DNA from: Alishewanella agri BL06 | GTDB lineage: Bacteria > Pseudomonadota > Gammaproteobacteria > Enterobacterales > Alteromonadaceae | Length of the DNA stretch: 64,000 nt | Assembly: GCF_000272005.1 (NCBI RefSeq) | Contig: NZ_AKKU01000001.1 | Span: forward strand, 372,001 to 436,000 | Direction: 5' to 3' | In this document: positions 11,171-32,593 of the stretch, in pieces | Numbering within the stretch: the first letter of the stretch is position 1 | Layout: each line of letters begins with the position of its first letter | Notes under the pieces: generated by a model | The model's input: only the letters and a program-made list of their open reading frames with translations | The model's database searches: none | What the model was told of the DNA's origin: nothing | Position numbers and translations under genes: made by a program

Positions 11171-11265
11171 GCAAGTTATTCGTTAGCGTAGTGTCATAAT
11201 TGAAAATAGAAGGGCGCTTACACTGCGTGAAAGCAGGTGCGTTCCAAACTATAAAGATGTTATGC
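11171..11265 (+). other. Array leader 1 with attI-like core site
   Basis: Bases 11171-11263 match 32499-32591 with three differences, although what follows each copy is unrelated. The shared part stops in GTTAT, the insertion core, just where the first cassette begins (GTTATGC 11259-11265). The sequence before the core (CCAAACTATAAAGAT) is simple and has no attC-like inverted repeat, as expected for attI rather than attC. The attI identity is an inference; no integrase is adjacent. Confidence 0.6.
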
Positions 11266-11276
11266 AGGGGTAAGAA

Positions 11277-11795
11277 ATGAAGCATCGAGATATTCAACCT
11301 GCACATGAAATTGCTGTTCTGGAAAGTTTTAAAATCTTTCTATCAAAGGAAGGCTGCGATCTTAAAGTTTTGAGTAGACCAGATCCTCCAGATGCAATCG
11401 TTGATATTGATGGAAATACAACTTGGATCGAAATTTCTGACGCCTTTCAAAACAGCGAATGGGCAAGAAGTATTACTACTTATGCCGCTGACGATAAAGT
11501 ACATATTCCTGGTGGGAATGGATTAACTTTAAACCCTGATGAGGCTTCAATAAACATTGTCACTAAAGTCATACTCAACAAATATGACAAAAAAACCATG
11601 AATAGCATTATGGCTCAACATGGCCCTGGTATTTTGTTGGTTGGCATGTATACGCCGATGACTTTCCCTGAAGATGTAATTGAGCAAGCCGGTCATGAGA
11701 TACTTGAAGTAATATCATCAAGAAAACAGATTTTCGGTGCTATTTATTTATATAGGAATTCGTTTGGTAGCCACTTGTTTTATAAGCTTTTATAG
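11277..11795 (+). CDS. Cassette 1: possible PD-(D/E)XK-like nuclease fold protein
   Basis: A 172-residue protein with a good Shine-Dalgarno (GGGGTAAG) and ATG start right after the leader, so it is the first cassette. Residues about 35-57 read PDPPDAIVDIDGNTTWIEIS, which resembles the PD...(D/E)xK core of small restriction-like nucleases, but the final basic residue is not evident (IEISD). The rest is unrecognised. First position usually means best expression in an integron. It could be a nuclease, an inactive relative or an unrelated protein. Confidence 0.6.
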   Translation: MKHRDIQPAHEIAVLESFKIFLSKEGCDLKVLSRPDPPDAIVDIDGNTTWIEISDAFQNSEWARSITTYAADDKVHIPGGNGLTLNPDEASINIVTKVILNKYDKKTMNSIMAQHGPGILLVGMYTPMTFPEDVIEQAGHEILEVISSRKQIFGAIYLYRNSFGSHLFYKLL

Positions 11796-11812
11796 TTCTA
11801 GCTTGGTGCAAA

Positions 11813-11894
11813 TGCATAACAAGCGCCAGCACAAACGCGCCCGTTGGGCGCTCGACTCGCAACAAGTTGCTCGCGTGTGTGGCGAGCGTTAGCA
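11813..11894 (+). repeat. attC site A1
   Basis: R'' ATAACAA near 11816, R' GTTAGCA at 11888-11894, inner arms pairing CTCGACTCGCAACAAG with TTGCTCGCG. Same sequence family as A3, A15, A16 and A21. Confidence 0.88.
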
Positions 11895-12226
11895 GGTTTT
11901 CGGGTTTTAACGGTTTTAGTCATTAGTTTTGTACCGGCATTGCTCGCGTTTGGTTTTCTTAGCGGCAGTGCCAAAAGGTTAAGCTCGCCAGTTTGCGGGT
12001 TTTGCTGCAAACGGTGATGGCGGTAGCGTTGTTCTTTTTGGCTTCGCTCAATAGTTTTTTAGGTTCCGGTTGGCTCGCCGTATCGCAGCTGGCCGGTGTA
12101 GTTTTTAATAAAAGCAGCCGTGCCGTTGTTCGGGTTTGCCAGGGCGGCAAGCCGCGCAAGTTCGGTGTGGGCTGCTAACAAGCAAAGCCAGCCGACGCTT
12201 ACCGCGCAGCTGCTTTGAGCGTTAGC
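11889..12226 (+). other. Cassette 2: cassette without a convincing gene
   Basis: The stretch between attC A1 and A2 has no convincing reading frame. A 61-codon forward frame (11993-12178) runs into the next attC and is not preserved in the related cassette at 13113-13451. A frame shared with that cassette begins with a GTG inside the preceding attC (FRVLTVLV, then LSGSAKRLSSPVC) but is broken by a base insertion here. The cassette may carry a promoter, an RNA or a decayed gene. Confidence 0.6.
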
Positions 12227-12227
12227 T
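12174..12227 (+). repeat. attC site A2 (short type)
   Basis: R'' GCTAACAAGC, arms AAGCCAGC / GCAGCTGCTT, R' GTTAGCT at 12221-12227. Very short attC; same family as A4 and A12. Confidence 0.85.
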
Positions 12228-12251
12228 GGTGACTTAGAAAATGGACTTAGT

Positions 12252-13046
12252 ATGAAATTCTGGTGGTTATTGTTTGCGGTGAGTCTGATATTGCCGAATT
12301 ACTGCAATGCAGTTGTAAAGCGACACGATATTCCGCCAAAAAAATATTTGGTCGATAATGCACCAGCGTTTCTGATTGATATGCCTCACGAGGGGCATGG
12401 TGTGCTGATTGCACCTCAATGGATTATTACAGTAGCACATGTCATTTTTTATGATTACAAAGGTAAAAGCATAAAAATTGGTGGTGAAAGCTACAAAATT
12501 GAATCAGTAACAAAACATCCCGATTATATTGAGCCTGATGAATCTTTGTTTAAGGGAGATGCAACACGATTAATGGCGTTCTTTGCTTCAAGGAGTGATA
12601 TCGCGTTAATCAAACTGTCATCACCTGTCAGTGGCATCGCTCCGGTGAAAATTTATCAGGAAGATAATGAAGTGGGTCAAATTGTCACTGTGTTCGGTCG
12701 GGGAGCTACAGGGAACGGCTTAATTGGTGAGGATTTGAGCACTAAACCTCTACGTAAAATGCATTCCTTTAATAACAAAATTGATGGTGCAAAGGGTAGT
12801 TGGCTGACTTATAAGTTTGATTCGCCGCCTAATTCATTGCCGCTTGAAGGCATTCACGGATCTGGTGATAGCGGAGGCCCATCCGTTATTTTCCTTGAGG
12901 GTGAACCTTATCTTGCTGGGTTATCAAGTTGGCAGTATTGGCAAGGTGATCTTTCTACATTCAAAGGTGGTCTGTATGGTGCTACTGCATACCAAGTACG
13001 GCTATCAGTCTACAAAGATTGGATTTTAAGTGTGTTGGCTAGCTAA
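12252..13046 (+). CDS. Cassette 3: secreted trypsin-like serine protease
   Basis: A 264-residue S1-family protease. A signal peptide (residues 1-20, ending PNYCNA) is followed by the catalytic His in WIITVAHV, Asp in SDIALIKL and Ser in GDSGGPSV, so the triad is complete. The usual AHC cysteine is Val here, so the typical disulfide is missing. It would act in the periplasm or outside the cell, on unknown substrates. It is an unusually large and clearly enzymatic cassette product. The ribosome site is weak. Confidence 0.88.
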   Translation: MKFWWLLFAVSLILPNYCNAVVKRHDIPPKKYLVDNAPAFLIDMPHEGHGVLIAPQWIITVAHVIFYDYKGKSIKIGGESYKIESVTKHPDYIEPDESLFKGDATRLMAFFASRSDIALIKLSSPVSGIAPVKIYQEDNEVGQIVTVFGRGATGNGLIGEDLSTKPLRKMHSFNNKIDGAKGSWLTYKFDSPPNSLPLEGIHGSGDSGGPSVIFLEGEPYLAGLSSWQYWQGDLSTFKGGLYGATAYQVRLSVYKDWILSVLAS

Positions 13047-13118
13047 CAAGCGCCAGCACAACGCGCCTATGGCGCTCGACTCGCAACAAGTTGCTCGCGT
13101 GTGTGGCGGGCGTTAGCA
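13041..13118 (+). repeat. attC site A3
   Basis: R'' GCTAACAAGCG overlapping the protease stop, R' GTTAGCA at 13112-13118. Nearly the same as A1, so cassette 4 follows the same attC type as its relative cassette 2. Confidence 0.88.
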
Positions 13119-13451
13119 GGTTTTCGGGTTTTAACGGTTTTAGTCAGTAGTTTTATTTCGGCCTGGCTCGCGTTTAGTTTTCTTAGCGGCAGCGCCAAAA
13201 GGTTAAGTTCGCCAGTTTGTAGGTTTGCTGCAAACGGTTGTAGCGGTAGCGTTGTTCTTCCTGGCTTCGCTAAAACAGGTTTACAGGTTCCGGTTGGCTC
13301 GCTGTGTCGCAGTTAACGGGTTTAGTTTTTAATTAAAAGCAGCCGTGCCGTTGTTCGGGTTTGCCAGTGCGGCAAGCCGCGCAAGTCCGGTGTGGGCTGC
13401 TAACAAGCAAAGCCAGCCGACGCGTACCGCGCAGCTGCTTTAAGCGTTATG
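13113..13451 (+). other. Cassette 4: gene-less cassette related to cassette 2
   Basis: Aligns with 11889-12226 over its full length with many substitutions and a few short insertions or deletions. The 71-codon frame starting with GTG 13101 inside attC A3 is not kept intact in cassette 2. Substitutions are spread without a clear codon pattern. Best described as a diverged duplicate of unknown function. Confidence 0.6.
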
Positions 13452-13452
13452 T
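13398..13452 (+). repeat. attC site A4 (short type)
   Basis: R'' GCTAACAAGC, R' GTTATGT at 13446-13452; differs from A2 by only a few bases. Confidence 0.85.
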
Positions 13453-13470
13453 GCTCGCAAGGAACCAAGT

Positions 13471-13878
13471 ATGGCTTTAAATTTGAAAGAGGTTGATGGC
13501 GTTCCAATCCAAGCTAAACACAAAGCTACCTGCCATTGTGGTTCTGTTGAGTTTGAGCTTGATTTGCCGGATGGTTTGGTTGAATTACGTCGCTGTGATT
13601 GTTCGCTTTGCCGGCGGCGTGGAGCAATAGCGGCTTCAATTCCTCTGTCGGGTATAAAAATTATAAAAGGTGAGAGCTTTTTAAAGCTTTATCAGTTTAA
13701 TACAAAGACAGCCAAGCATTATTTTTGCAGTAACTGCGGTATTTATACCCACCATCAACGCAGGTCAAATCCAACGCAGTACGGTTTTAATGTTGCTTGC
13801 CTTGAGGGAATTAACCCATTGAAAATACCAAATGTACCAACCAACGATGGTGTAAACCACCCGGCCGATCGCAAATAA
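13471..13878 (+). CDS. Cassette 5: GFA/CENP-V-family zinc protein
   Basis: A 135-residue protein of the glutathione-dependent formaldehyde-activating enzyme (GFA) family. The zinc-binding cysteines are visible as CHCGSVEFEL, RRCDCSLCRRRG and YFCSNCGIYTHHQ, the family's usual spacing. Members bind two zincs; few have a proven substrate, so formaldehyde or glutathione chemistry is only a family-level guess. A good ribosome site (AAGGAAC) precedes the ATG. Confidence 0.9.
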   Translation: MALNLKEVDGVPIQAKHKATCHCGSVEFELDLPDGLVELRRCDCSLCRRRGAIAASIPLSGIKIIKGESFLKLYQFNTKTAKHYFCSNCGIYTHHQRRSNPTQYGFNVACLEGINPLKIPNVPTNDGVNHPADRK

Positions 13879-13882
13879 TGGC

Positions 13883-13973
13883 ACATAACAAGCAAATTTT
13901 ATCGCCAGCAAAAAGCGCTGGCTGCGACGTCAACCCGCTGCGCGGCTTTCCGCGCTAAATTTGGGCGTTATGT
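13883..13973 (+). repeat. attC site A5
   Basis: R'' CATAACAAGC, arms ATTTTATCGCCAGC and CGCGCTAAATTTGGGC flanking a GCGCTGGCTGCGACGTC centre, R' GTTATGT at 13967-13973. Same family as A17, A18, A20, B1 and B4. Confidence 0.9.
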
Positions 13974-13976
13974 GGC

Positions 13977-14285
13977 ATGGAGCATGTAGTGGGATTAGTT
14001 GAAGTCGAAATTTTAGGGGTTGAGAGCGAGGACTTCCCCATCTGGATTGAGTGCAGACTAACAGAGTTTGATGGAAGTGAACACCGAATTATCGAGAAGT
14101 TACCAGTTCTCACTGAGCAAGAATTGAACACTGATAAGCTTCCTACGACATTACAAATTGAGTGCACTGTTCTAAGTATTGAGCAGGAGAAAGTATTAAT
14201 CGATCTATCTATGCCTCATGGTATTCAATCCACCGAAGGAGTTCAAAAATTTGTCGTGCACAGCAGTCTCTATCATGCCACATAA
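13977..14285 (+). CDS. Cassette 6: hypothetical protein
   Basis: A 102-residue acidic protein, not recognised, with no signal or membrane segment. Its ATG lies 3 bases after the R' core, so there is no room for a ribosome site made of cassette sequence; translation would be near-leaderless or use the upstream attC. A GTG at 13989 is an alternative. The stop codon lies inside the R'' box of the next attC. The predicted strands (GLVEVEILGVESEDFPIWIE) suggest a small beta-rich fold. Confidence 0.6.
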   Translation: MEHVVGLVEVEILGVESEDFPIWIECRLTEFDGSEHRIIEKLPVLTEQELNTDKLPTTLQIECTVLSIEQEKVLIDLSMPHGIQSTEGVQKFVVHSSLYHAT

Positions 14286-14366
14286 CAAGGCGCATCACTC
14301 GCAGCCTGCGGCTGCTGGGACACCAACCCGCTGCGCGGCTCGTCGCCCGTGTGCTTTGCGTTATGA
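14278..14366 (+). repeat. attC site A6
   Basis: R'' ACATAACAAGGCGC, centre CGCAGCCTGCGGCTGCTGGG, R' GTTATGA at 14360-14366. Family of A7 and A9. Confidence 0.88.
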
Positions 14367-14377
14367 GGTGAAGGCCA

Positions 14378-14641
14378 TTGCGTAAACACAACCTCCTGTT
14401 GTTAATAGCAGGATTAGCCATTCCCGTTTTGTTGCTTTTACTTAAAGTTGATATGTCTTCGTACACATTGTTTTTATGGCCTACTTGGATTTTTTTGCTG
14501 GTTCTAGGAGGGCAGTTTAATGGTGTTGGAGACTATGTTTTTGTTGGAGTAAGCATTTTGCTAAATGGTGGTGTTTATCTTGTTTTCGGTAATATGTTGA
14601 GGTTGCTGTATGTCAGGCTTTTTAAAACAAAATCAGTGTAA
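14378..14641 (+). CDS. Cassette 7: small membrane protein
   Basis: An 87-residue protein starting with TTG after GAGGTGAAGG. Two to three hydrophobic segments (LLLLIAGLAIPVLLLLL, FLWPTWIFLLVLGG, VFVGVSILLNGGVYLVFG) predict an inner-membrane protein. No family recognised. One of a set of very small membrane-protein cassettes in this array. Confidence 0.65.
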   Translation: MRKHNLLLLIAGLAIPVLLLLLKVDMSSYTLFLWPTWIFLLVLGGQFNGVGDYVFVGVSILLNGGVYLVFGNMLRLLYVRLFKTKSV

Positions 14642-14647
14642 TGTGGC

Positions 14648-14740
14648 ACCTCATAACAATGCGCATCACTCGCTCCCGTTGGTCGCTGGGACGCCAAACC
14701 CGCTATCGCGTTTTTGTCGCCCGTGTGCTTTGCGTTAAAT
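14648..14740 (+). repeat. attC site A7
   Basis: R'' TCATAACAATGCGC, R' GTTAAAT at 14734-14740. Same family as A6 and A9, with CTCCCGTTGGTCGC at the centre. Confidence 0.85.
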
Positions 14741-14755
14741 TTCACGGAGGTACAG

Positions 14756-15100
14756 GTGCATCTTCAAAGGACTGTTGGAATACTGCTAGCTAGTTATTCT
14801 CTTTACCTTGCCATCCGCTTAATTACGCAGATTGATATGCTGTGGGTGACGACTGAGGACTTCGCCTATCCAAGTGACCCTTTTTGGTATTTCTTAGGGT
14901 TGTTAAGTTTTAATGTGGTAACCATAGCGGCAGTTTTGTCTTTAGGCATTTATCTCGTTCGAAGCTCGGATTTGGCGTTAAAAATTCTGGTGCCTTTATC
15001 AGTTTTGTCAGTGTTGTCAGGCGGCATTGTTGGCTTGCTGTTAGTTGTGTCAGTTTTTGTAGTCATTTACTACCAGCGTTGTAAAGTCAGTGAAATTTAA
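14756..15100 (+). CDS. Cassette 8: small membrane protein
   Basis: A 114-residue protein if started at GTG 14756, which follows a clear ACGGAGG at 14744. The frame is open upstream but that part is attC sequence. Three to four hydrophobic segments (VGILLASYSLYLAIRLI, WYFLGLLSFNVVTIAAVLSL, ILVPLSVLSVLSGGIVGLLL). Function unknown. Confidence 0.65.
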   Translation: MHLQRTVGILLASYSLYLAIRLITQIDMLWVTTEDFAYPSDPFWYFLGLLSFNVVTIAAVLSLGIYLVRSSDLALKILVPLSVLSVLSGGIVGLLLVVSVFVVIYYQRCKVSEI

Positions 15101-15184
15101 CAAGGCCAGTCAGCAACGGCCACTGCGTGGCCTGGACCTCAAACCCGCTGCGCGGCTTTTCGGCCGCTGCTGGCTGCGTTAGGC
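15095..15184 (+). repeat. attC site A8
   Basis: R'' TTTAACAAGGCCAG overlapping the cassette 8 stop, R' GTTAGGC at 15178-15184. Same family as B2 in the second array. Confidence 0.87.
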
Positions 15185-15199
15185 ATTCAAGGAGGAAAG

Positions 15200-15646
15200 A
15201 TGCACACTTCAAGTAACAAGTATCTTCTGGCTGCGGCAATATGTTGTTTTGCTGCCGCACTTGCTCATCTGGGCTGTATTGTATTCGGGGGCGATTGGTA
15301 TCGTTTCTTCGGTGCAGGTGAACAGATGGCCCTGATGGCAGAGCAAGGGCTGTGGTATCCAACAGTTGTAACCTCTGTCATTGTTATAGTGCTTTTGGTT
15401 TGGGCGCTTTATGGCCTGTCGGGCGCGGGCGCAATTAAACGTTTACCTCTGACAAAACTAGCGCTAATCCTCATTACTGGTATATTTTTACTTCGGGGCG
15501 TTTCCTTCGTCGGGTTAATGCCAATGTTCCCAGAAAACAGTCTGACGTTTTGGTTAATTAGTTCTGGTATCTGTTTGTTTATTGGCGGCTTGTTTGCTTT
15601 AGGTTCTTGGCAGCAGTGGTCATTTTTAGGTGCAAAAAATGCCTAA
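15200..15646 (+). CDS. Cassette 9: four-helix membrane protein
   Basis: A 148-residue protein with a strong ribosome site (AAGGAGGAAAG). It has four hydrophobic segments: about residues 8-28, 53-72, 85-103 and 115-135. A conserved loop FFGAGEQMALMAEQGLWYP follows the first. A broken relative of its middle part lies at 35734-35841 in array 2, showing this family circulates as a cassette. No function recognised. Confidence 0.7.
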   Translation: MHTSSNKYLLAAAICCFAAALAHLGCIVFGGDWYRFFGAGEQMALMAEQGLWYPTVVTSVIVIVLLVWALYGLSGAGAIKRLPLTKLALILITGIFLLRGVSFVGLMPMFPENSLTFWLISSGICLFIGGLFALGSWQQWSFLGAKNA

Positions 15647-15727
15647 CAAAACGCAGCACTCGCTCCCGTTGGTCGCTGGGACGCCAACCCGCTGCGCGGC
15701 TCGTCGCCAGTGTGCTATGCGTTAGGC
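15640..15727 (+). repeat. attC site A9
   Basis: R'' GCCTAACAAAACGC, R' GTTAGGC at 15721-15727. Family of A6 and A7. Confidence 0.88.
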
Positions 15728-15751
15728 AAAGCAGGAGTAAGTCTTAATCTC

Positions 15752-16858
15752 GTGACCAAGAAGCGATCCCCACGGAAGAAAAAAGCTTTGCCTCCGGTAT
15801 CCTTGGGAGGGGTCTGCGTTGAAGAAGGCTTACCTTACCCTATTGTTCATTACCCGAACCACTATGGCGCTTTTTTTGCGTTTTCAGAATCAGAGGAAGC
15901 TGAAGCATGCCTTTGTGACTGTAGCCGTTCGGCATTCGAGAACCTTATAGAGCTCAACAAGAATTTTCGTTCTCAACGTAATTCAAACCCTCTCCGTGAA
16001 ACTGTAGTTGATAGCTTTAATGCCCCAGATGTGTTGGCAAAAATCAGTTTAGAAGTTGGCGGGGATATCAGCTGCCAAAACTTTCGCTTCAAGCCAAAGC
16101 TATGCCACAGATGCAACTTAACACCGCCCACGCAGAGGTTCTGTCATGAGATGTACGGCGGGCAGTTTAAACAAAGCTTTGGGTGGTACATTCAACAAAC
16201 CTATTTACGCCTCGGTATCAGCACGACCAGCCTGGAGTATTTGGAAGATATATGTCCACCGGAATACAAAGAGCTCATTCACGAAATTGAGCAAGCGCAG
16301 ATAAAGTACCAGGTGGAGCATTCTCGAATAAATGAGATTGTATACGGCCCTGACCGCGAAGACATTGCTAGCGATGAAGTAACATATTGGCATAATGTCA
16401 GAAAAGAAGAAGCTGAGCCGCTATTGAAACTGAGAAGAGAGCATCAGAGACTTAGAACAAAGCTGAAGAACAATGTTGAAAATATTGTTCGCCAAGAGTT
16501 TGGCTTTAAAAAAATCGGCGAAGGCTGGGTGAGTGAAACTCTACTGTATCAAATCATTGCACGCATTTTTCCTGATCTCGAAATTAGTAGGCACCACAGG
16601 CCAGACTGGCTTGAAGGGCTAGAACTTGATATCTACATCCCAAGTCTAAAATTAGGTATCGAATATCAGGGCCAGCAACATTACCAGCCCATATCAATTT
16701 GGGGCGGAAAAGGCGCTTTAATCGCATTGCAAGAGCGCGATGAAAGGAAAAGAAAACTATGCAAGGCGCTAGAAATTTCCCTGATGGAGGTGGACTTTAC
16801 CGAGCCACTCACTAACGAACACATAAGAAATCGCCTCAATGAGCTTAAAATTTTGTAG
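15752..16858 (+). CDS. Cassette 10: Cys-rich protein with Vsr/restriction-like nuclease C-terminus
   Basis: 368 residues from GTG 15752; the frame is open upstream through attC A9, and CAGGAG at about 15732 is the nearest ribosome-site-like sequence. The N-terminal half has cysteine clusters (CLCDCSRSAFENL, then KPKLCHRCNLTPPTQRFC) that could bind zinc. The C-terminal part (LELDIYIPSLKLGIEYQGQQ, followed by H-Y, then IALQERDERKRKLCKA and LMEVDF) has the order D...E-x-Q...K expected of a Vsr-type PD-(D/E)XK nuclease. It may be a defence endonuclease; the role is inferred. Confidence 0.7.
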   Translation: MTKKRSPRKKKALPPVSLGGVCVEEGLPYPIVHYPNHYGAFFAFSESEEAEACLCDCSRSAFENLIELNKNFRSQRNSNPLRETVVDSFNAPDVLAKISLEVGGDISCQNFRFKPKLCHRCNLTPPTQRFCHEMYGGQFKQSFGWYIQQTYLRLGISTTSLEYLEDICPPEYKELIHEIEQAQIKYQVEHSRINEIVYGPDREDIASDEVTYWHNVRKEEAEPLLKLRREHQRLRTKLKNNVENIVRQEFGFKKIGEGWVSETLLYQIIARIFPDLEISRHHRPDWLEGLELDIYIPSLKLGIEYQGQQHYQPISIWGGKGALIALQERDERKRKLCKALEISLMEVDFTEPLTNEHIRNRLNELKIL

Positions 16859-16872
16859 CATAACCAAGAAAT

Positions 16873-16957
16873 TGCCTAACAAACACAGGCACGGCGACGG
16901 TTACTGCATTGCGGCTTCGCCTCCATTCTGTAACCGCGCGTGCTGTTGGCGTTATGT
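16873..16957 (+). repeat. attC site A10
   Basis: R'' GCCTAACAAACACAGGCACG, arms GACGGTTAC / GTAACCGCGCGTGC, R' GTTATGT at 16951-16957. Not closely like the other families in the window. Confidence 0.85.
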
Positions 16958-16979
16958 TTTTTAGTAATGAGCGATATTA

Positions 16980-17555
16980 ATGTTGAAAAAAGACATTCTT
17001 CTAAATGGAGTTGTGGTGGGTTCTTATGAAGCAACCGGCAATACCTTAGAGGATCTGAAAGCTGCTGAAAAAATACTTAAAGATAAAGGTCTTCATGCAG
17101 AGGCTACGGTTAATGACGCGATTTATTACCAAGCTAATTCATTCGCGATAATTGCTAAAGAAATTTACGAAAAGGATCTAAGAAAATCACCTTTCAAAGG
17201 AAGTAGTGTTTCTCCATTTGTCGTAAATGCAACATTTAGCATCGAACTTTATTTAAAAGCCATACATGATGCCTATGGTAAGATTAGAGGGCATAATTTG
17301 TTGGCCCTTTACAAAGGGATGCCAAAAAAAGGAAAAGACTTCTTTTTGACTTCAGCGTCTGTTGTTCGCGGTTTTTACAATTTGCATGAAGGTGAAGATA
17401 TTCTTACTTGCTTAGACTCACTAAGTCAGGCGTTCGAGAAGTGGCGTTATGTTTGGGAAAATAATGGAATTGGTACGGAAATTCAGTCAATTCGATACAC
17501 AATGCATGTTGCTCATGAAGCATGTTGTAGAGTAAGAGATAGTATAAAAACATAA
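16980..17555 (+). CDS. Cassette 11: HEPN-like protein of unknown function
   Basis: A 191-residue mostly helical protein. The segment VNATFSIELYLKAIHDAYGK, then RGHNLLALYKGM, is the pattern often seen in HEPN/AbiV-type helical bundles. A late RYTMHVAHE could supply an R-x4-6-H-like RNase motif (R to the second H), but the spacing is borderline. HEPN proteins are common toxins and abortive-infection RNases. It has no partner gene in its cassette. An ordinary helical protein cannot be excluded. Confidence 0.55.
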   Translation: MLKKDILLNGVVVGSYEATGNTLEDLKAAEKILKDKGLHAEATVNDAIYYQANSFAIIAKEIYEKDLRKSPFKGSSVSPFVVNATFSIELYLKAIHDAYGKIRGHNLLALYKGMPKKGKDFFLTSASVVRGFYNLHEGEDILTCLDSLSQAFEKWRYVWENNGIGTEIQSIRYTMHVAHEACCRVRDSIKT

Positions 17556-17627
17556 CAAACCGCGTCATTCAGGGCCTTCGGCCCTTGCGACGCTCACAAG
17601 TTCGCGCGCATGCGCGGGGCGTTAGAT
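17550..17627 (+). repeat. attC site A11
   Basis: R'' CATAACAAACCGCG, centre hairpin AGGGCCTTCGGCCCT, R' GTTAGAT at 17621-17627. Nearly the same as A22. Confidence 0.88.
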
Positions 17628-17648
17628 TTTTAGGAGAATCGTGGATTC

Positions 17649-18671
17649 ATGGAAAAAAAGTATCAAGTGTTCGTCAGCTCCACTTACATTGATCTTTTGG
17701 ATGAACGTAAAGAGGTTACTCAAGCTCTATTAGAACTTGACTGCATACCTATTGGAATGGAGCTTTTTCCAGCATCCGATGAAGATCAATGGAGTTTCAT
17801 CAAGTCTGTCATAGATGACTGTGACTACTATTTACTAATTTTAGCTGGGCGCTATGGTTCCTGCTCTGAAAGTGGATTGAGTTACACTGAAATGGAATAC
17901 CGCTACGCAATAGACACTGGGAAGCCGGTAATTGCTTTCTTGCATCAAGAGCCAGAATTAATTCCTGCAAAGTTTTCTGAATCAGATAAGGAAATGCAAG
18001 AAAAGCTTGCAAGCTTCAGATCTCTTGCTCAAAAGAAATTATGTAAGTTTTGGAAAACGCCCACTGAGTTATCAGCTGTAGTAGGAAGAAGTATTGTTCA
18101 GCTTAAAAAAAGATCTCCTGCTATTGGCTGGGTAAAAGCGGATCTTGTCCCAGACGAAGGAGCATCGCAGGAGATATTGAAGTTAAAAAACGAAATCGAA
18201 AAACTTAAGGCCGAACTTTCTAAGCAATCAAATACTGGAGTTGACCCAAGCGACTTAGCTCAGGGAGAGGAAATATTTTCATTTCCATATACCGCAAAAG
18301 CGAAACATGGTTGGAATGATTATGTTGAAGTGCAGCTAAGAACTGAAATATCTTGGAACTCTTTATTTGCTTCATTAGCGCCTTCGATGGCGAATGAGTC
18401 AGATGAACGTAATCTGCAAAGTAAACTTAACCAAACCATATCAAAATTAGAAGAAAAAGTTATCAGCAAACAAAAAAATTTCTCTGGTTATGAATCGTAC
18501 GCGGTAGTAGAGAGCGATATTTTAGAAACGATAATTGTGCAATTTCGAGCTTTAGGATTAATACAAAAAAGCACAAAAAATAGAAGTGTCAAAGATAAAC
18601 ATACATACTGGAGTCTAACCGAGAAGGGGGATTCACTTTTAGTTGGCCTCCGAGCAATAAAAAAAATCTAA
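17649..18671 (+). CDS. Cassette 12: DUF4062 protein with C-terminal helical/winged region
   Basis: A 340-residue protein. Residues 1-100 are a clear DUF4062 domain (YQVFVSSTYIDLLDERKEV, then FIKSVIDDCDYYLLILAGRY, then GLSYTEMEYRYA), a Rossmann/TIR-like fold found as an N-terminal module of NLR-like and other antiviral proteins. A short coiled coil (about 176-195) leads to a C-terminal region with a winged-helix look (VQFRALGLIQKS, then HTYWSLTEKGDSLLVGL). No ATPase or nuclease module is present, so it would be a minimal stand-alone member. Preceded by AGGAG. Confidence 0.75.
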   Translation: MEKKYQVFVSSTYIDLLDERKEVTQALLELDCIPIGMELFPASDEDQWSFIKSVIDDCDYYLLILAGRYGSCSESGLSYTEMEYRYAIDTGKPVIAFLHQEPELIPAKFSESDKEMQEKLASFRSLAQKKLCKFWKTPTELSAVVGRSIVQLKKRSPAIGWVKADLVPDEGASQEILKLKNEIEKLKAELSKQSNTGVDPSDLAQGEEIFSFPYTAKAKHGWNDYVEVQLRTEISWNSLFASLAPSMANESDERNLQSKLNQTISKLEEKVISKQKNFSGYESYAVVESDILETIIVQFRALGLIQKSTKNRSVKDKHTYWSLTEKGDSLLVGLRAIKKI

Positions 18672-18720
18672 CAAGCAAAGGCAGCCGACGCGTACCGCGC
18701 AGCTGCTTTGGGCGTTATGT
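18667..18720 (+). repeat. attC site A12 (short type)
   Basis: R'' TCTAACAAGC, arms AAAGGCAGCCGACGCG / CGCAGCTGCTTTG, R' GTTATGT at 18714-18720. Family of A2 and A4. Confidence 0.86.
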
Positions 18721-18761
18721 GACTCTCAGCATCAAGCTGATCTTTAAAAAAGGGTATCTAA

Positions 18762-19025
18762 ATGGATTTATATTTTAATAGTTTGAACTCAGGCCAAGTA
18801 ATGGCGTTTGGCTTTATGTGGAATATATTGCCAATTATAGGTGCCATCTTAGTTCATCTTGCTTTCAGTGCTGCAGTATTTAACGACGCCAACAAATTAC
18901 AAAGAGAGCATGGATCTCTAGCATTTGTAAATTCTTGGTTGTGGTCTTTGGCTGTTTTAGTTGGTGGTGTATTTGTTGCTTTAGCTTATTGGGTTATGCA
19001 CCATTCAACAATTGCTAAACATTAA
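18762..19025 (+). CDS. Cassette 13: small membrane protein
   Basis: An 87-residue protein with two predicted membrane helices (MWNILPIIGAILVHLAFSAA and WLWSLAVLVGGVFVALAYWV) joined by a polar loop NDANKLQREHGS. The loop between two helices recalls two-helix PLDc_N-like or small transporter-like proteins, but no family is certain. Confidence 0.65.
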   Translation: MDLYFNSLNSGQVMAFGFMWNILPIIGAILVHLAFSAAVFNDANKLQREHGSLAFVNSWLWSLAVLVGGVFVALAYWVMHHSTIAKH

Positions 19026-19028
19026 ATG

Positions 19029-19129
19029 TCACATAACAAATTACTAAATTGCGTTCCGGCCACAAAAAGCATGGCCTCCACGGGACTGCCTACGCTGCGC
19101 TACGGCAGCCCATTAGTAACGCGTTATGC
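19029..19129 (+). repeat. attC site A13
   Basis: R'' ACATAACAAATTACTAAATT, arms GTTCCGGCC and CTACGGCAGCCCATTAGTAA, R' GTTATGC at 19123-19129. Family of A19. Confidence 0.85.
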
Positions 19130-19147
19130 AACTTTACGGTAAAAAGC

Positions 19148-19468
19148 GTGAACAAGATCAAAGAGCAGCTGTTGGCAACGGATCTGGCTGATTGGCGGAA
19201 GAAGGGCATATTTACAGTTGTTATTTTATTAAGTGTTTTTCCCTTCTTTATTACGTACAAGACATCTCTGCCAGACTTAGAGGATAATTTGTGGCAGTTG
19301 CGTCACTTCGTGGGTATCGCAGCTATACAGGCTGTAGCTCAAATTTCGCTTGCATGGTATATCCTGAAAAACAAGGTGCCCAATTACGTAATAGGTAGTT
19401 TCATCATTATCGCAATGTTTTTTCAGGTCACATATGGGATATCGGTCATTTTTGTGTCCAATGCATAA
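19148..19468 (+). CDS. Cassette 14: small membrane protein
   Basis: A 106-residue protein from GTG 19148; the frame extends upstream only through attC sequence. Three hydrophobic segments (GIFTVVILLSVFPFFITY, FVGIAAIQAVAQISLAWYI, YVIGSFIIIAMFFQVTYGIS). The ribosome site is poor (ACGGTAAAAA). Function unknown. Confidence 0.6.
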   Translation: MNKIKEQLLATDLADWRKKGIFTVVILLSVFPFFITYKTSLPDLEDNLWQLRHFVGIAAIQAVAQISLAWYILKNKVPNYVIGSFIIIAMFFQVTYGISVIFVSNA

Positions 19469-19567
19469 CAAACGGCTGCACCGGACAAATTTCCGCTGTC
19501 ATCTTTTGTGCAAAGGGCCGCACAAAAGCCGCCATCAAAAATTTGCTCGGTGAGCCGGGCGTTATAC
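19461..19567 (+). repeat. attC site A14
   Basis: R'' GCATAACAAACGGCT, arms CACCGGACAAATTT / AAATTTGCTCGGTG with inner CTTTTGTGC / GCACAAAAG, R' GTTATAC at 19561-19567. A long site with no close relative here. Confidence 0.86.
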
Positions 19568-19584
19568 ATTTCACAGAGGCTCAT

Positions 19585-19848
19585 ATGAACATTCAATTTA
19601 AGTGGTCAAATGCAAACTACCTTGAGGCGGGTAAACAAGCTGAGTTTGAAGAAGCAGTTAGAGACGATATAAATTTGGAATCTGATGATAGAGCAAAGCC
19701 ATGTCATGCAGGAGACTTGCTTGTTGAGCTTGGTGTTGCAGGTCCATTGTTGAATAAAGTGGTTGGTAACGTTAAATGTAGTTGTGGAACCAGCTATTTA
19801 ATTATTGACGGTACAGTAAACCAAAATATTAGTTATAGCAGAGTTTGA
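19585..19848 (+). CDS. Cassette 15: hypothetical protein
   Basis: An 87-residue acidic soluble protein from ATG 19585, preceded by CAGAGG. Two cysteines in VKCSCGTSY near the C-terminus could bind metal with a third Cys at PCHAGD. No family recognised. The frame is open upstream, but that part is attC A14. Confidence 0.6.
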   Translation: MNIQFKWSNANYLEAGKQAEFEEAVRDDINLESDDRAKPCHAGDLLVELGVAGPLLNKVVGNVKCSCGTSYLIIDGTVNQNISYSRV

Positions 19849-19853
19849 CACCG

Positions 19854-19937
19854 CATGTATAACAAGCGCCATCAAAAACGCGCCCGTTGGTCGCTCGACT
19901 CGCAACAAGTTGCTCGCGTTTGTGGCGGGCGTTATGC
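19854..19937 (+). repeat. attC site A15
   Basis: R'' TGTATAACAAGCGCC, R' GTTATGC at 19931-19937. Family of A1, A3, A16 and A21. Confidence 0.87.
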
Positions 19938-19956
19938 ATTTTGAGGTAATCACATA

Positions 19957-20328
19957 GTGATTCGGGCAATTAAAAGTCAGTTAAACTTAAAACCTCATTT
20001 CTACGCTGAATCAGCGAGAGTCGGCGGTTTCGGTTGCATACTGGGTGGAGTATTAGCGTTTTACCTTTTCCAATATATTTCATCGTTCTTTGGTATAGCC
20101 ACTGATATTCCTATCCGGCAGTATGATCAAACGATAGTTATGTTTATGTTCGCAAGCTGCCTTTTAACGCTTATTTTCTGTTTGTACATATTTTGTGTTT
20201 TATCAGCTTTTATTTACTACGGAATTAAGTGCCAAAAAGGACTCATTAGTAAAGACGAATTTATAAATATCGCTTTTAAAGGTATTTACCCAAAGCGCTG
20301 GCAGAAAGGCTACCGAGAAAATGCATAA
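19957..20328 (+). CDS. Cassette 16: small membrane protein
   Basis: A 123-residue protein from GTG 19957, after TTGAGGTAAT. Two strong membrane helices (GGFGCILGGVLAFYLFQYIS and MFMFASCLLTLIFCLYIFCV) with a basic cytoplasmic tail (FKGIYPKRWQKGYREN). Function unknown. Confidence 0.65.
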   Translation: MIRAIKSQLNLKPHFYAESARVGGFGCILGGVLAFYLFQYISSFFGIATDIPIRQYDQTIVMFMFASCLLTLIFCLYIFCVLSAFIYYGIKCQKGLISKDEFINIAFKGIYPKRWQKGYRENA

Positions 20329-20400
20329 CAAACGCCATCAAAACGCCGCTTTGCGGCTCGACTCGCAACAAGTTGCTCGCGTTTGTGGCGGGCGTTAGCA
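20321..20400 (+). repeat. attC site A16
   Basis: R'' GCATAACAAACGCC, R' GTTAGCA at 20394-20400. Family of A1, A3, A15 and A21. Confidence 0.88.
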
Positions 20401-20418
20401 CTAATACAGGGAGTTAAG

Positions 20419-20838: not shown

Positions 20839-20853
20839 ATTTGGGCGTTAGGC
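20762..20853 (+). repeat. attC site A17
   Basis: R'' TGCTAACAATC, R' GTTAGGC at 20847-20853. Family of A5, A18 and A20, and overlapped by the end of the cassette 17 gene. Confidence 0.88.
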
Positions 20854-20866
20854 TTTGGAGAAGACA

Positions 20867-22803: not shown

Positions 22804-22887
22804 AATGCCTAACAATCGCCATCAAAAACGCGCCCGTTGGGCGCTCGACTCGCAACACGTTGCTCGCGTTTGTGGCGGGCGTTATAT
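22804..22887 (+). repeat. attC site A21
   Basis: R'' GCCTAACAATCGCC, R' GTTATAT at 22881-22887. Family of A1, A3, A15 and A16. Confidence 0.88.
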
Positions 22888-22904
22888 TTTTTAAGGATAG
22901 TTAA

Positions 22905-23468: not shown

Positions 23469-23470
23469 AA

Positions 23471-23549
23471 AATATAACAATCCGCGTCATTCAGGGCCTT
23501 CGGCCCTTGCGACGCTCACAAGTTCGCGCGCATGCGCGGGGCGTTATAT
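23471..23549 (+). repeat. attC site A22
   Basis: R'' ATATAACAATCCGCG, centre AGGGCCTTCGGCCCT, R' GTTATAT at 23543-23549. Nearly the same as A11. Confidence 0.88.
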
Positions 23550-23568
23550 GCCTAAAGGAAAACGTAGC

Positions 23569-23928
23569 GTGAAGAATATCGCTTTAATAATATCAATACT
23601 TGCGGCTGCAAGCTGCGCCTCAAATTCAGTATCGCGCAAACCCGGTGATGCCCTATTAATTGGGGAAAATAGTTCAACCTTGAAAGTCATGATTCGAACC
23701 ATTGATGATGGAGAGATATTGTGGGTTGGGAATTACACTCTAGGTACAAGGGCTGTCGTTGCTCCCGGCGAGCACAAAGTTAACGTCATGTGCGAATTTA
23801 AATTTTCTTGGGGTATCAAAATGGTTCCAGGAAACATTCAGATTAATGCGCAATCGAGCACTGATTATAAAATTACAGGTCGCTTATCAAGTGATGAAAA
23901 GTCCTGCAACCTATCAGCGAGCATATAA
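23569..23928 (+). CDS. Cassette 23: small lipoprotein
   Basis: A 119-residue protein from GTG 23569, 9 bases after AAAGGA; ATG 23548 is an alternative that overlaps the attC core. The signal peptide has a lipobox-like end (ILAAASC), so Cys about 16 would be lipidated. The mature part is predicted beta-rich (TLKVMIRTIDDGEILWVGNY, then VAPGEHKVNVMCEF), resembling small PEGA-like or carboxypeptidase-regulatory-like domains. Role unknown. Confidence 0.7.
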   Translation: MKNIALIISILAAASCASNSVSRKPGDALLIGENSSTLKVMIRTIDDGEILWVGNYTLGTRAVVAPGEHKVNVMCEFKFSWGIKMVPGNIQINAQSSTDYKITGRLSSDEKSCNLSASI

Positions 23929-24036
23929 CAAATCGGTCAGCCGGACCCAAAACCGCGCGTGCTATGGCGCATGCGCTCCGCGCATTTTATGCGCCCTATC
24001 GCCCGCGGCTTTGGCCCGGCTACCTCAGCGTTAGCT
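23919..24036 (+). repeat. attC site A23
   Basis: R'' GCATATAACAAATC, arms GTCAGCCGG / CCCGGCTACC with inner TGGCGCATGCGC / GCGCATTTTATGCGCC, R' GTTAGCT at 24030-24036. The longest site in the array (about 118 bases). Confidence 0.83.
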
Positions 24037-24053
24037 TTCGCCGGAGTCCAAAC

Positions 24054-24464
24054 ATGGTTTCCAAAGAAGAAATTACAGAGTTCTTAAAAACGGAGTTTCC
24101 TCAAACAAAGTGTACGGTCGAGGAGATCGGTTCGCGTGGCGCTACGGTTAGGCATCGTATCGGTTTTGAAGAACTCCGTCCTGGCGGTACGGTCTCCGGT
24201 CCCGTATTGATGGCAGTTGCCGATGTGGCACTCTACGTAGCTATCCTGGGTGAAATAGGTTTGGTGCCGCTTGCGGTAACGACCAGTCTCAACATTAATT
24301 TCCTGCGTAAGCCGTCTTCCGATCGGGATATTATCGGGCGTTGCTCATTATTAAAGATAGGAAAGAGCCTTGTGGTCGGAGAGGTATTTTTATATTCGGA
24401 AGGTCTTGCTGAACCGGTGGCGCACGTTGTTGCTACTTATTCGGTACCGGTATCAAAAAGCTAA
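24054..24464 (+). CDS. Cassette 24: PaaI-like hotdog thioesterase
   Basis: A 136-residue protein from ATG 24054, with CCGGAG upstream. The hotdog pattern is clear: FEELRPGGTVSGPVLMAVAD, then ALYVAILGEIG and LNINFLRKPSSDRDIIGRC. The PaaI/YdiI family hydrolyses acyl-CoA thioesters; the substrate is not predictable. The catalytic acid could be the Asp in MAVADVAL. Base composition is slightly higher in G+C than in neighbouring cassettes. Confidence 0.87.
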   Translation: MVSKEEITEFLKTEFPQTKCTVEEIGSRGATVRHRIGFEELRPGGTVSGPVLMAVADVALYVAILGEIGLVPLAVTTSLNINFLRKPSSDRDIIGRCSLLKIGKSLVVGEVFLYSEGLAEPVAHVVATYSVPVSKS

Positions 24465-24532
24465 CAAGTAAAGGCAGCGGAAAACCAAAAGCTCCGCTAC
24501 ACTTTTGTTTTCCGCTGCTTTAAGCGTTATGT
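24460..24532 (+). repeat. attC site A24
   Basis: R'' AGCTAACAAGTAAAGGCAGC, arms GGAAAACCAAAAG / CTTTTGTTTTCC, R' GTTATGT at 24526-24532. Confidence 0.87.
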
Positions 24533-25215: not shown

Positions 25216-25280
25216 GCGCAAGTCGGGCTTTTCTTTTCGGTAAATTTATGGTTAAGTAAAAAGGCAAGACCAAGATACAA

Positions 25281-25379
25281 ACTTGTCGGAGTGCATTAGG
25301 GCGATATTGCCCTGAAGCTGAGACCGCATTGCGGGATCCGTTGAACCTGATCAGGCTAATACCTGCGAAGGGAACAAGT
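25281..25379 (+). promoter_or_regulatory. TPP riboswitch (THI element) of the thi operon
   Basis: P1 stem ACTTGT (25281-25286) pairs with ACAAGT (25374-25379). The conserved pyrimidine-sensing GCTGAGA (about 25317) and the pyrophosphate-side GAACCTGATCAGGCTAATACC (in two parts, from about 25342) with GCGAAGGGAA are all present. A small hairpin at 25466-25483, followed by TTGATTTT, could be part of the expression platform. The element lies about 180 bases before thiC and 100 bases after the end of array 1. Confidence 0.93.
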
Positions 25380-25544
25380 AGTGATTATGTACCAGCTGAC
25401 CAGCTACGAATACCGAGGCTTACAAATCTCTATTCTGAGTTGTGTTATCTGATAAGTAAGGCAAGAGCTGCTGAATAGCAGTTTGATTTTGCTGTTGCTG
25501 ACATTTAATCCTATCCAACACTCCTGACAAGCATTTTCCCTTAA

Positions 25545-29083
<3,539 letters not shown>

Positions 29084-29091
<8 letters not shown>

Positions 29092-29839
29092 ACTAACGCC
29101 AGCCCAGCAGTTGCGCTATAGCGCCCAACTGCTGCTGCCTGAAATGGATGAGAGCCAGCAATTGCGATTGTTGCATAGCAAGGTGTTGATTATTGGTTTA
29201 GGCGGTTTAGGCTGCGTGGTCGCGTCCTATTTAGCCGGAGCTGGCGTGGGGCATTTACTGCTGGCCGATGATGATCGCGTTAGCTTAAGCAATTTACCCC
29301 GGCAATTACTCTATAGCAGTGCCGAGGTTGGCCAGTTAAAGGTCGATGCGGCCAAAGCGCGGTTACAGGCGCAAAACCCGGAGCTGGTCATTACACCTCT
29401 GGCAGCGCGTTTAACCTTGCCTGATCTGCTGGTGCTGTTACCTGGGGTTAATCTGGTGCTGGATTCTACTGATAACGCCAGCAGTCGCTTAGCGATTAAT
29501 CAGGCCTGTTATTTACGGCAGGTACCGCTGATTAGCGGCGCGGCCAGTGGCTGGCAAGGGCAGCTATTAGCGCTTAAGCCTTGGCTGGGGCAGGGCTGCT
29601 ATCAGTGCTTATACCCCGATTGGCAGGATAGCCCCAGCTGTTTACAAAGCGGCATCTTGGGGCCATTAGTTGGCATGGTGGCCTGCCAGCAAGCGCTACT
29701 GGCGCTTAAACACCTCTTGCAAATAGGCGATGTGTCCTTTGGCCGCTTGCACTGTTTTGATGGTCTGCACGGCCAGAGTAGTCAGTTAAAGCTGCAACAG
29801 GATCCGGCATGTCCGATCTGTGCTGCCAGCGACAGCTAA
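29084..29839 (+). CDS. thiF: ThiS adenylyltransferase ThiF
   Basis: A 251-residue E1-like enzyme that adenylates the ThiS C-terminus. It shows the nucleotide loop [20 protein letters not shown], the Arg in SNLPRQLLY, the [16 protein letters not shown] block and two zinc CxxC pairs (CYQC and CPIC). Starts 8 bases before the thiDE stop. The order thiF-thiS-thiG-thiH supports the assignment over the homologous MoeB. Confidence 0.92.
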
Positions 29840-29877
29840 CCTTTTTCGCCCTAATTCGATTAAAGAGAGCAAACACG

Positions 29878-30078
29878 ATGCTGATTTATTTTAATCAACA
29901 ACCTATTGCATTAACGCAACCTTGCACGGTGGCAGAGTTTTTGGCCGGTCAACAACAACTACGCCCCGGTATCGCGCTTGCCATTAACCAGCAAGTGATC
30001 CCGCGTAGTTGCTGGGATACTCAGCCGCTGAGCGATGGCGATACGATTATGCTGTTTACTGCCATAGCTGGAGGGTAA
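29878..30078 (+). CDS. thiS: Sulfur carrier protein ThiS
   Basis: A 66-residue beta-grasp protein from ATG 29878 after AAAGAGAG. It ends in the di-glycine tail (FTAIAGG) that is adenylated by ThiF and converted to the thiocarboxylate used by ThiG. The stop is 2 bases before the thiG ATG. Confidence 0.92.
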
Positions 30079-30080
30079 AT

Positions 30081-30851
30081 ATGGCCTATCAAATAGCAGG
30101 ACACACTTTTCAATCACGTTTACTAACCGGCACCGGTAAATTTCAAAGTGCTGGTTTAATGCAGCAAAGTTTAGCAGCCAGTGGCACCGAGCTGGTCACC
30201 ATGGCGCTTAGGCGGGTCGATTTGATGACACGTCAGGATGAAATTTTACCGGTGCTTAGCGCACTGGGCGTTAAGCTACTGCCAAATACCTCTGGTGCTC
30301 GCACCGCCGAAGAAGCAGTGTTTGTGGCTGAGCTGGCGCGTGAAGCACTGCAAACGCACTGGCTAAAATTAGAAATTCACCCTGATCCGCGCTATTTATT
30401 GCCCGATCCCATTGAAACGCTTAAAGCCGCTGAATTGTTGGTGGCCAAAGGCTTTGTGGTGTTGCCGTATTGCGGCGCCGATCCGGTGCTGTGTAAACGT
30501 TTAGAAGAAGTCGGCTGCGCAGCGGTGATGCCGCTGGGCGCGCCCATTGGCTCGAATCAGGGCCTGCAAACCCGCGATTTTTTACGCATTATTGTGGAGC
30601 AAAGCCGGGTGCCGGTGATAGTTGATGCTGGTATTGGTGCGCCAAGTCATGCCAGCGAGGCGCTGGAGTTAGGCGCTACTGCGGTATTAGTTAATACCGC
30701 CATTGCCAGTGCCGCTGATCCTATTGCGATGGCGCAAGCCTTTAAACTGGCGTGCCAGGCCGGGGAGTTAGCCCAGCAAGCTGGTTTAGCTGCCCGTCAG
30801 CAGCATGCAGTGGCCAGCAGCCCGTTAACGGCTTTTTTGGAGAGCCTATGA
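30081..30851 (+). CDS. thiG: Thiazole synthase ThiG
   Basis: A 256-residue TIM-barrel enzyme. Family blocks include [12 protein letters not shown] at the N-terminus, the imine-forming Lys in [29 protein letters not shown] and [14 protein letters not shown], then [13 protein letters not shown]. It joins DXP, ThiS-thiocarboxylate and dehydroglycine (from ThiH) into the thiazole. ATG 30081 has GGAGGG upstream. Confidence 0.96.
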
Positions 30852-32053
30852 TAAGCAATGCCTTAGCCAGTGGGCGCATGGCGAATGATGCGCAAGCGCT
30901 GCAGCTTGAGCCCAGCGGTTTTAGTTTGCTGCTGGCCAGGCAAGATAGCCAGCAGTGGCAGCAAAAAATTATGCAGGCCGATACGGCTGCGGTGCAGCGC
31001 GCTTTAGCAAAAAAGCGCCGTGATCTGGATGATTTCGCAGCGTTAATTTCACCGGCGGCCGCGCCTTTTTTAGCGCAAATGGCCAGCCAGGCGCAGCTGC
31101 TTACCCGCCAGCGTTTTGGCCATGCGCTGCAGTTTTATATTCCGCTGTATTTATCCAACTTATGCGCGAATGATTGCAGTTATTGCGGTTTCTCGATGAG
31201 CAATGCGCTAAAAAGGCGCACCCTGACGCTGGCTGAGGTCGAGCAAGAATGTCAGGCCATAAAAGCACAAGGCTTTGCAACGGTATTACTGGTCGCCGGC
31301 GAGCATGAAAAAAAAGTCGGGCTCTCGTATTTTAAGCAGGTGCTGCCGGTGGTAAAGCGCTACTTTAGCTATGTACTGCTAGAGGTGCAGCCGCTGGCCA
31401 GCCGTGATTATGCTGAGCTTAGGCAGTATGGGCTCGATGGTGTTTTGGTGTATCAGGAAACCTATGATCGCCACGGCTATGCTAAACACCATCTTAAAGG
31501 GAAAAAAATGGATTTTGACTGGCGCCTTGCAACACCAGAGCGACTGGGGCAGGCCGGGGTAGATAAAATAGGCCTTGGCGCTTTGCTGGGGTTAGGCGAT
31601 TGGCGGCTAGACTCGTTATATCTGGCCTTGCACCTGCGTTACTTGCAGCAACATTATTGGCGCAGCCGCTACAGTATGTCGTTTCCACGACTGCGACCCT
31701 GCGCGGGTGGCTTGGCCGATCAGGTGCTACAGCAACATCAATCCGATACCCTGATCAGCGATAAACAATTGGTACAACTGATCTGCGCCTGGCGCTTATT
31801 TGATCCTGAGCTGGAGCTCAGTTTATCCACCCGGGAATCGGCGCATTTTCGCGATCATGTGGTGCCGCTGGCTATCACCAGTATCAGTGCCGGCTCCCGC
31901 ACTTCCCCGGGCGCTTATGCCGATGCAACCGCCAGTCTGGAGCAATTTAGCACCGATGATCAGCGTAGTGCCCAGCAAGTTGCGGCCAGCATGGCAAGCC
32001 GAGGCCTGCAGCCGGTCTGGAAAGATTGGGAAACCGGACTCTGTCGCAGTTGA
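30848..32053 (+). CDS. thiH: 2-iminoacetate synthase ThiH
   Basis: A 401-residue radical-SAM tyrosine lyase. The cluster motif C-x3-C-x2-C is seen in [14 protein letters not shown], followed by the SAM-contact [10 protein letters not shown] and the C-terminal [14 protein letters not shown]. It cleaves tyrosine to dehydroglycine for ThiG. The ATG overlaps the thiG stop (ATGA). Last gene of the thiamine operon. The end [12 protein letters not shown] is typical. Confidence 0.95.
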
Positions 32054-32056
32054 TGA

Positions 32057-32283
32057 GCCTTAGACAGCAGCCAGGCGAGCCTGTTGGGTAAGCTGCACCC
32101 GCGCTTGCCAGGCCGGAGCGGCCTGTTGCCATTCTTGCTCGTAGGTGAGTTTTTGCGCATGGCCATTTAAGGTTAAGCGGGCTTCCGTATTCTGATCACC
32201 GGCACTTGCCTGATGATACAGTGTGATGCTGAAACGGTTATCGTGCTCCAGATTGCGGGCATGTTGGGCAATATCGGAGCAAG
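32057..32283 (-). pseudogene. 3' remnant of a PPOX/HugZ-like gene
   Basis: On the minus strand a frame without its 5' end reads SDIAQHARNLEHDNRFSITL, continuing to QLTQQARLAAV and a stop at 32057-32059. This matches the N-terminal third of pyridoxamine-5'-phosphate-oxidase-like / HugZ heme-utilisation proteins (S-D-L-A-x-H-x-R-N pattern), then diverges into a short tail. No start codon context remains upstream. It seems cut near 32283 by the sequence that leads to array 2. Family call is from a short motif only. Confidence 0.4.
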
Positions 32284-32498
32284 AGCAGTAACCGCGTCTA
32301 ACAAGACAGAAAATCTGGCTTTATGCATGGTTTTTGGGGGTGACAAATCGGAGGAAATCAGCGAGCATGGTTTTAACATTTATGGTGAGCATCCGCGATG
32401 TGGGATTGTTGGCGAATGATCAGATCGGGAACCGCCATGAATGTTCCCTAATCGCCTAGATTTTTATTCTAACTACAAAATTTCTGGGGATACCTCAG

Positions 32499-32593
32499 GC
32501 AAGTTATTCGTTAGCGTAGTGTCATAATTGAAAATAGAAGGGCGCTTACACTGCGCGAAAGCAGGTGCGTTCCAAACTACAAAGCTGTTATAA
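32499..32593 (+). other. Array leader 2 with attI-like core site
   Basis: Matches array leader 1 over 93 bases with three differences and ends in the core GTTATAA (32587-32593), directly followed by the first cassette of array 2. Preceding sequence differs entirely from that before leader 1; there is no LexA-like box here. Confidence 0.6.

Follow-up and report, generated by a model that had tools for sequence, protein, structure and literature searches.

Why should two cassette arrays on one bacterial contig begin with the same attI-like leader when no integrase gene (intI) adjoins either of them? The question is raised by a 64,000-nucleotide stretch of the Alishewanella agri BL06 genome (contig NZ_AKKU01000001.1, positions 372,001 to 436,000; here the window), for which an original prediction, made from the sequence alone, proposed either two landing sites served by one distant integrase or a split or duplicated integron. 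The reading favoured here, at a probability of roughly 0.7 on the comparisons below, is that of a distributed integron, in which orphan attI sites (those with no intI beside them) would be served in trans by an integrase encoded on another contig. Genomes, contigs and loci carry our own numbers (G, C and L), G000 being the A. agri genome and C1 the contig of the window; feature coordinates are given in Table 1.

The two leaders, copy 1 and copy 2, are identical at 90 of 93 bases, with mismatches at leader positions 58, 82 and 87, in agreement with the figure first given. A search of the whole genome returned exactly these two close copies (E-values of 8.7e-43 and 7.1e-39), so the likeness is not due to chance, and the leader is not a repeat dispersed away from arrays. 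To the right, similarity ends in both copies within GTTAT at the first cassette, as predicted, giving way to GCAGGGG in copy 1 and to AAATTTAC in copy 2; the GTT core is thus present at both junctions, and the two first cassettes are unrelated. The original prediction treated the two leaders alike, which holds for these right edges and fails for the left edges, which differ in kind. When folded, neither leader did better than its own shuffles (z-scores of 0.28 and 0.21), and no attC-like stem-loop was found in this test, in keeping with the claimed lack of attC structure, though of four attC bottom strands folded as a yardstick two stood out (z-scores of −2.26 and −2.80) and two did not (−0.90 and −0.96).

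Matches to the leader were found in 16 of the 60 genomes searched (own genome included), all of one genus. Several of these homologues stand divergently, directly upstream of intI, and in five intI-linked loci the intI start lies 127–128 bases from the start of the attI model. Because of these neighbours in congeners, and of a relative of the leader (78% over 60 bases) that serves as attI beside the full intI of the own genome, both leaders are, by homology extending over about 100 bases and more, attI sites, equivalent to the sequence between intI and the first cassette of complete integrons; the suspected resemblance to attI is borne out. Among the matches of a separate sequence-pattern search were also four Alkalimonas stretches.

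The genome-wide search for intI that had been suggested as a check yielded one full gene (321 codons), of the matching lineage, on a different contig, C12, where it is accompanied by an attI and an array of its own. The C12 array has the same attC families as the window arrays, in the same orientation relative to attI. Across 22 loci examined, each integrase lineage is paired with its own attI type: lineage A (80–100% to the own IntI) occurs with leader-type attI, here type A, lineage B (65–71%) with another attI, type B, and two integrases at 45% (L030 in G016:C45 and L144 in G025) with a third attI type. The integrases at 45% identity we take to be of class 1 and their attI to be like attI1. 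Of 35 full intI genes, 13 are adjoined by a type-A attI match, and the rest were typed in part. Linking the two contigs is a cassette of array 1 that is identical at 414 of 419 bases to a cassette of the C12 array, the similarity starting and stopping at the exact cassette limits.

Downstream of both leaders run arrays on the + strand with all attC in one orientation. The attC motif, a simple pattern with an L-box check that also rings inside some reading frames, matched 22 times in array 1 and 7 times in array 2; two and four of these matches, inside open reading frames, were discarded by eye, and two array-1 sites were added from repeat copies, giving the totals in Table 1. A further eight loose matches lie elsewhere in the window. 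The arrays share attC families, and the repeat search found no whole cassette common to both. Neither belongs to a complete integron: no integrase-family match lies in the window's stretch of C1, and tblastn of up to 3 kb upstream of each copy found no intI, so the predicted absence of a neighbouring integrase gene stands. With at least two attC and no nearby intI, both arrays are clusters of attC sites lacking integron-integrases (CALINs), their attC being called by motif and not by IntegronFinder. Between them are thi genes and a thiamine pyrophosphate (TPP) riboswitch, in agreement with the predicted thiamine operon.

Copy 1 lies beyond a cluster of tRNA genes in old chromosomal flank. To its left, about 110 more bases are homologous to intI-linked sites, reaching almost to where intI would start, and beyond this are tandem repeats of the kind found past the other end of intI on C12, which together show the loss of intI and the survival of the attI end. 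The same arrangement follows the same tRNA genes in G003 and G016, where the intI-less junction is shared and the first cassettes are different; the loss thus preceded the divergence of this genome and those sisters. Copy 1 is, on this comparison, the attI end of an integron whose intI was lost in an ancestor of G000, G003 and G016. An orphan attI also follows a similar pgsA–tRNA flank in G023. The symporter gene at 42.4 kb in the window directly follows the tRNA genes in G004, G005, G008, G011 and G020, and lies about 1.8 kb after them in G007, so the intervening window stretch is inserted relative to those genomes. Repeats of the CGTCTCCGGTACG kind flank integron ends at several loci, also at C12 (about 92141–92366) and in L085 (17562–17851).

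Copy 2 abuts an insertion sequence, of which the final 219 bases are left, fused to part of a gene that G003 has intact; this insertion sequence, presumably of the IS4/IS10 kind, is present elsewhere with the same end as at position 32498. The left edge of copy 2 is therefore owed to the insertion sequence and not visibly to an integrase. Copy 2 has no TTGATT element, which copy 1 and most relatives carry on their left and which may be part of the cassette promoter. Copy 2 is 97% identical to copy 1, against 85–89% between either copy and two G003 sites, which points to a recent duplication of the attI of copy 1 in this lineage. The duplicate would have been joined to the thi region by a rearrangement involving the insertion sequence, the edge being visible and the route conjectural; a possible route considered was that the attI region was duplicated in tandem and then trimmed by deletions. 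Of the proposed split or duplicated integron, the duplication stands in that copy 2 is a near-duplicate, whereas copy 1 reflects an inherited loss of intI and the edge of copy 2 an insertion sequence. The presence of GTTAT at both ends of the 93-base match might suggest a small mobile attI cassette moved from copy 1 to copy 2 by integrase; with an insertion-sequence end as the left edge of copy 2, and homology continuing leftwards in copy 1 and relatives, this explanation is scarcely credible and was rejected.

Further along, the window from about 40.4 to 48.7 kb (40461–48639) is 71–74% identical to G003 and G016 where aligned, compared with 94–96% from 48.8 to 60 kb. This block is probably DNA imported from a more distant congener, and is a sign of more than one rearrangement at the locus. 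That array 2 and its attI came as part of the block was considered and rejected, the block being 71–74% identical to G003 and G016 and the leaders 97% alike.

Orphan attI sites are, as judged from sequence models, common across the genus and of at least two types. A site was counted as orphan when its expected side showed no TIGR02249 match at E 1e-25 in the adjoining 600 bases for type A, or 700 bases for type B. A sequence-only type-A model of 22 sites, run on 31 genomes of the genus, gave 63 matches in 29 of them at an E-value of no more than 0.001, of which 50 scored 40 bits or higher. Of these strong matches 12 stand beside full intI, five beside broken intI, one beside a 47-codon stub (L145) and one at a contig end (G016:C10), the last two being excluded from orphan counts; the remaining 31, spread over 21 genomes, have none. 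Among the 13 weaker matches one is beside full intI and 12 are without. No intI was found by tblastn up to 3 kb upstream of any of the 31 strong orphans, four of which (L154, L157, L161 and L165) retain DNA of the first bases of intI; at L165, intI fragments lie about 4 kb away. Type B, sought with a pattern allowing up to two mismatches (reversed control, no matches), gave 82 matches in 30 of the 31 genomes: 14 beside intI (at G008:C17 beside a fragment only), one at a contig edge and 67 orphans in 29 genomes. Forty of the 67 were fetched, one of them (L220) with an upstream intI fragment; for the other 27, minus-strand contig ends were unchecked. The view that attI without intI is unexpected does not survive these counts (31 of 50 and 67 of 82), and the check in related genomes suggested with it showed the junction of copy 1 in G003 and G016 and orphan attI genus-wide.

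Contig breaks cannot account for every orphan, as type-B orphans are present in G020 and G025 too, each a single-contig genome. The same two genomes bear on the suspicion that copy 2 or its surroundings are an assembly error, in a draft genome of 30 contigs that is rich in attC repeats and insertion sequences, both of which lie at the junctions; with orphan attI sites present in both of those genomes, and with the two copies placed within a single 458,790-base contig and distinguished by three mismatches, such an error is very improbable. Around the 31 type-A orphans, attC motifs number 34 downstream and one upstream (17 against one loci), and around the 40 type-B orphans 36 and three (22 against three loci); lying downstream and hardly ever upstream, they indicate that most orphan attI head arrays.

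In 10 groups of orthologous orphan loci, none of 44 genome pairs shows detectable similarity in the first 300 bases past the crossover, and in 29 of the 44 a homologous stretch of at least 240 bases stops within two bases of it (both tallied by hand). Some initial clusters had mixed unrelated loci; the 10 groups are those kept, five extra tested pairs are not counted, and three groups contain members whose flank aligns only piecewise. In the cleanest groups, G000:C20 with G003:C37 (96% over 1482 bases), G013 with G008 and G014, and G001 with G004, G009 and G026, about 1500 bases of flank align unbroken to the attI end, after which there is no similarity. Because the intI-less junction is shared while the first cassettes differ, the simplest reading of these alignments is that intI was lost once and cassettes were captured afterwards by means of an integrase from elsewhere. 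Where orphan loci are shared, the last 46 bases of attI are also better conserved than the adjoining promoter relic in three of four comparisons: own genome with G003 (41/46 versus 74/101, one-sided p of 0.022), G014 with G013 (44/46 versus 93/117, p of 0.007) and G014 with G008 (43/46 versus 87/116, p of 0.005), with no significant difference for G013 with G008 (45/46 versus 109/117, p of 0.22). Comparisons with G016 (core 29/52 and 25/52) were left out because its cassette joins inside attI.

Taken as a distributed integron, the system would have arisen from an ancestral integron at the pgsA–tRNA locus that lost intI, its attI end remaining as copy 1; attI would then have been copied near the thi region through rearrangement with the insertion sequence to give copy 2. 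Orphan sites would have kept capturing and exchanging cassettes after the loss, the integrase being supplied from another locus, here the IntI of C12, so that one recombinase has several docks. As for the two landing sites with one distant integrase that were first proposed, the full intI elsewhere is found, and service in trans is supported indirectly, by the different first cassettes and the cassette shared with C12. Extended to Alishewanella and Rheinheimera as a whole, the proposal that one or a few integrases work with several type-matched attI docks or arrays, inherited without intI and reloaded in trans, is in our judgement evenly poised.

Several observations weigh against service in trans. 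A full intI with type-A attI is present in the genomes of only 11 of the 31 type-A orphans (hand count); for the others the integrase involved may have disappeared since, may belong to another lineage or may never have been active. G003, which shares the copy 1 locus, has only lineage-B full intI, G016 combines a class-1-like full intI with broken lineage-A genes, no intI match at E 1e-25 was found in G014, and G008 has fragments only. At the pgsA locus the cores of G016, where the cassette is joined at another GTT inside attI, and of G010, where the core is damaged, suggest decay. No attC was found by motif in the examined windows of 14 of 31 type-A and 18 of 40 type-B orphans. Array 1 and C12 could each have captured their shared cassette independently from an outside source, and arrays passed between strains by homologous transfer could mimic cassette turnover. 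Part of this evidence also favours dead relics, arrays frozen by loss of intI at which no integrase acts, the differences between species either predating the losses or reflecting whole arrays swapped between strains by homologous recombination: for 20 of the 31 type-A orphans the genome contains no full intI with type-A attI, some attI cores are damaged, and the diverged block at 40.4–48.7 kb records uptake of foreign DNA at this very locus. Against frozen arrays speak first cassettes that differ at shared junctions without intI, as seen in all 10 groups, an attI core more conserved than its flank, and the cassette with exact limits common to array 1 and the intI-linked array; we consider relics an unlikely, though not negligible, explanation.

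As CALINs, the arrays have attC without adjoining intI; they differ in being headed by recognisable attI, at loci shared between species, with differing first cassettes. Proposed origins of CALINs include loss of intI and rearrangement (PMC8618304), and their mobilisation in trans is stated as possible (PMC12444791). The complete sedentary chromosomal integron on C12 has homologous attI, the same attC families and the same array orientation to attI, and differs from the window copies in having intI in cis. In attG sites (Loot et al. 2024, cited in PMC12901181) cassettes likewise lie away from intI and the integrase acts in trans; attG sites diverge from classical att sites (PMC12901181), whereas the leaders are clearly homologous to attI. 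Delta-attI gene cassettes of mobile integrons (PMC12901181) also place attI away from its usual position, there inside cassettes and here at the array head. CALINs are known; in the open literature consulted, with subscription papers and preprints mostly outside its scope, no report was recognised of a genus whose CALINs are largely attI-headed and change first cassettes without adjacent intI. A large survey counted 2961 CALINs, 2760 complete integrons and 356 In0 (PMC9024848). Integrase-less clusters are thus about as many as complete integrons, and whether such clusters are live or relics becomes directly testable in a genus with attI docks at shared loci and differing first cassettes. In IntegronFinder 2.0, attI detection is confined to class 1 (PMC9024848), and surveys blind to attI would miss part of the system. 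Should the genus-wide proposal hold, a distant integrase would be serving most of the arrays that attI heads in the genus, which would then be working satellites, not relics.

Table 1. Features of the two attI loci (window coordinates) and the integrase gene on contig C12
Feature	Position	Strand	Remarks
attI copy 1	11171–11263	+	crossover in final GTTAT; from genome search, relatives and attI model
attI copy 2	32499–32591	+
Cassette array 1	11264–24529	+	about 22 attC by motif scan and repeat search
Cassette array 2	32592–34751	+	3 attC by motif scan and repeat search
Array-1 cassette shared with C12	18714–19127	+
Sole full intI	G000:C12:91084–92028
Relic of intI promoter zone	11059–11170	+	intI itself absent; profile of intI-linked sites matches 204 bases up to crossover
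CGTCTCCGGTACG-kind tandem repeats	10848–11022		same kind beyond 3' end of intI at C12
tRNA Gly-Cys-Leu-Gly cluster	10396–10801	+	after uvrC and pgsA; synteny in congeners
Gene fragment	32134–32279	−	whole in G003 (L084:2574–3305); pyridoxamine 5'-phosphate oxidase type
Remnant of dispersed insertion sequence	32280–32498		with DDE transposase; end is left edge of copy 2
TPP riboswitch	25277–25390	+
Thiamine genes	25563–32053	+	thiC, ThiD/ThiE fusion, thiF family, thiG, radical SAM protein with BATS domain (thiH by position)

Within array 1 are two stretches poor in open reading frames (11838–12224 and 13062–13449), about 81–95% alike piece by piece, with relatives at 84–91% in the G013:C22 array. 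A search for defence families among 10 array-1 proteins gave one weak methyltransferase match only. G022 (L147 and L200; L157–L167) has five type-A matches, four of them orphan, with no full intI and only a broken integrase. Type-B orphans were also considered as precise mobile modules, a candidate rejected because several keep decayed intI-promoter-like sequence beyond their left edges (by eye); the left ends of type-B profile matches cluster at profile positions 202–220 in many of the 40 loci, which we take for a conservation boundary. In these loci (L186–L225) about 165 bases left of the crossover are still recognisable after intI loss, and the retained stretch contains a palindrome of the ACGGGTTAACCCGT form that may serve as a regulator site or belong to a promoter. 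Five weak model matches (L177, L178, L180, L182 and L184) have a further attI-like sequence, which ends in TTCYAATAATATTGTTA and may represent a third attI type of the genus; attC motifs follow it in L177, L178, L180 and L184.

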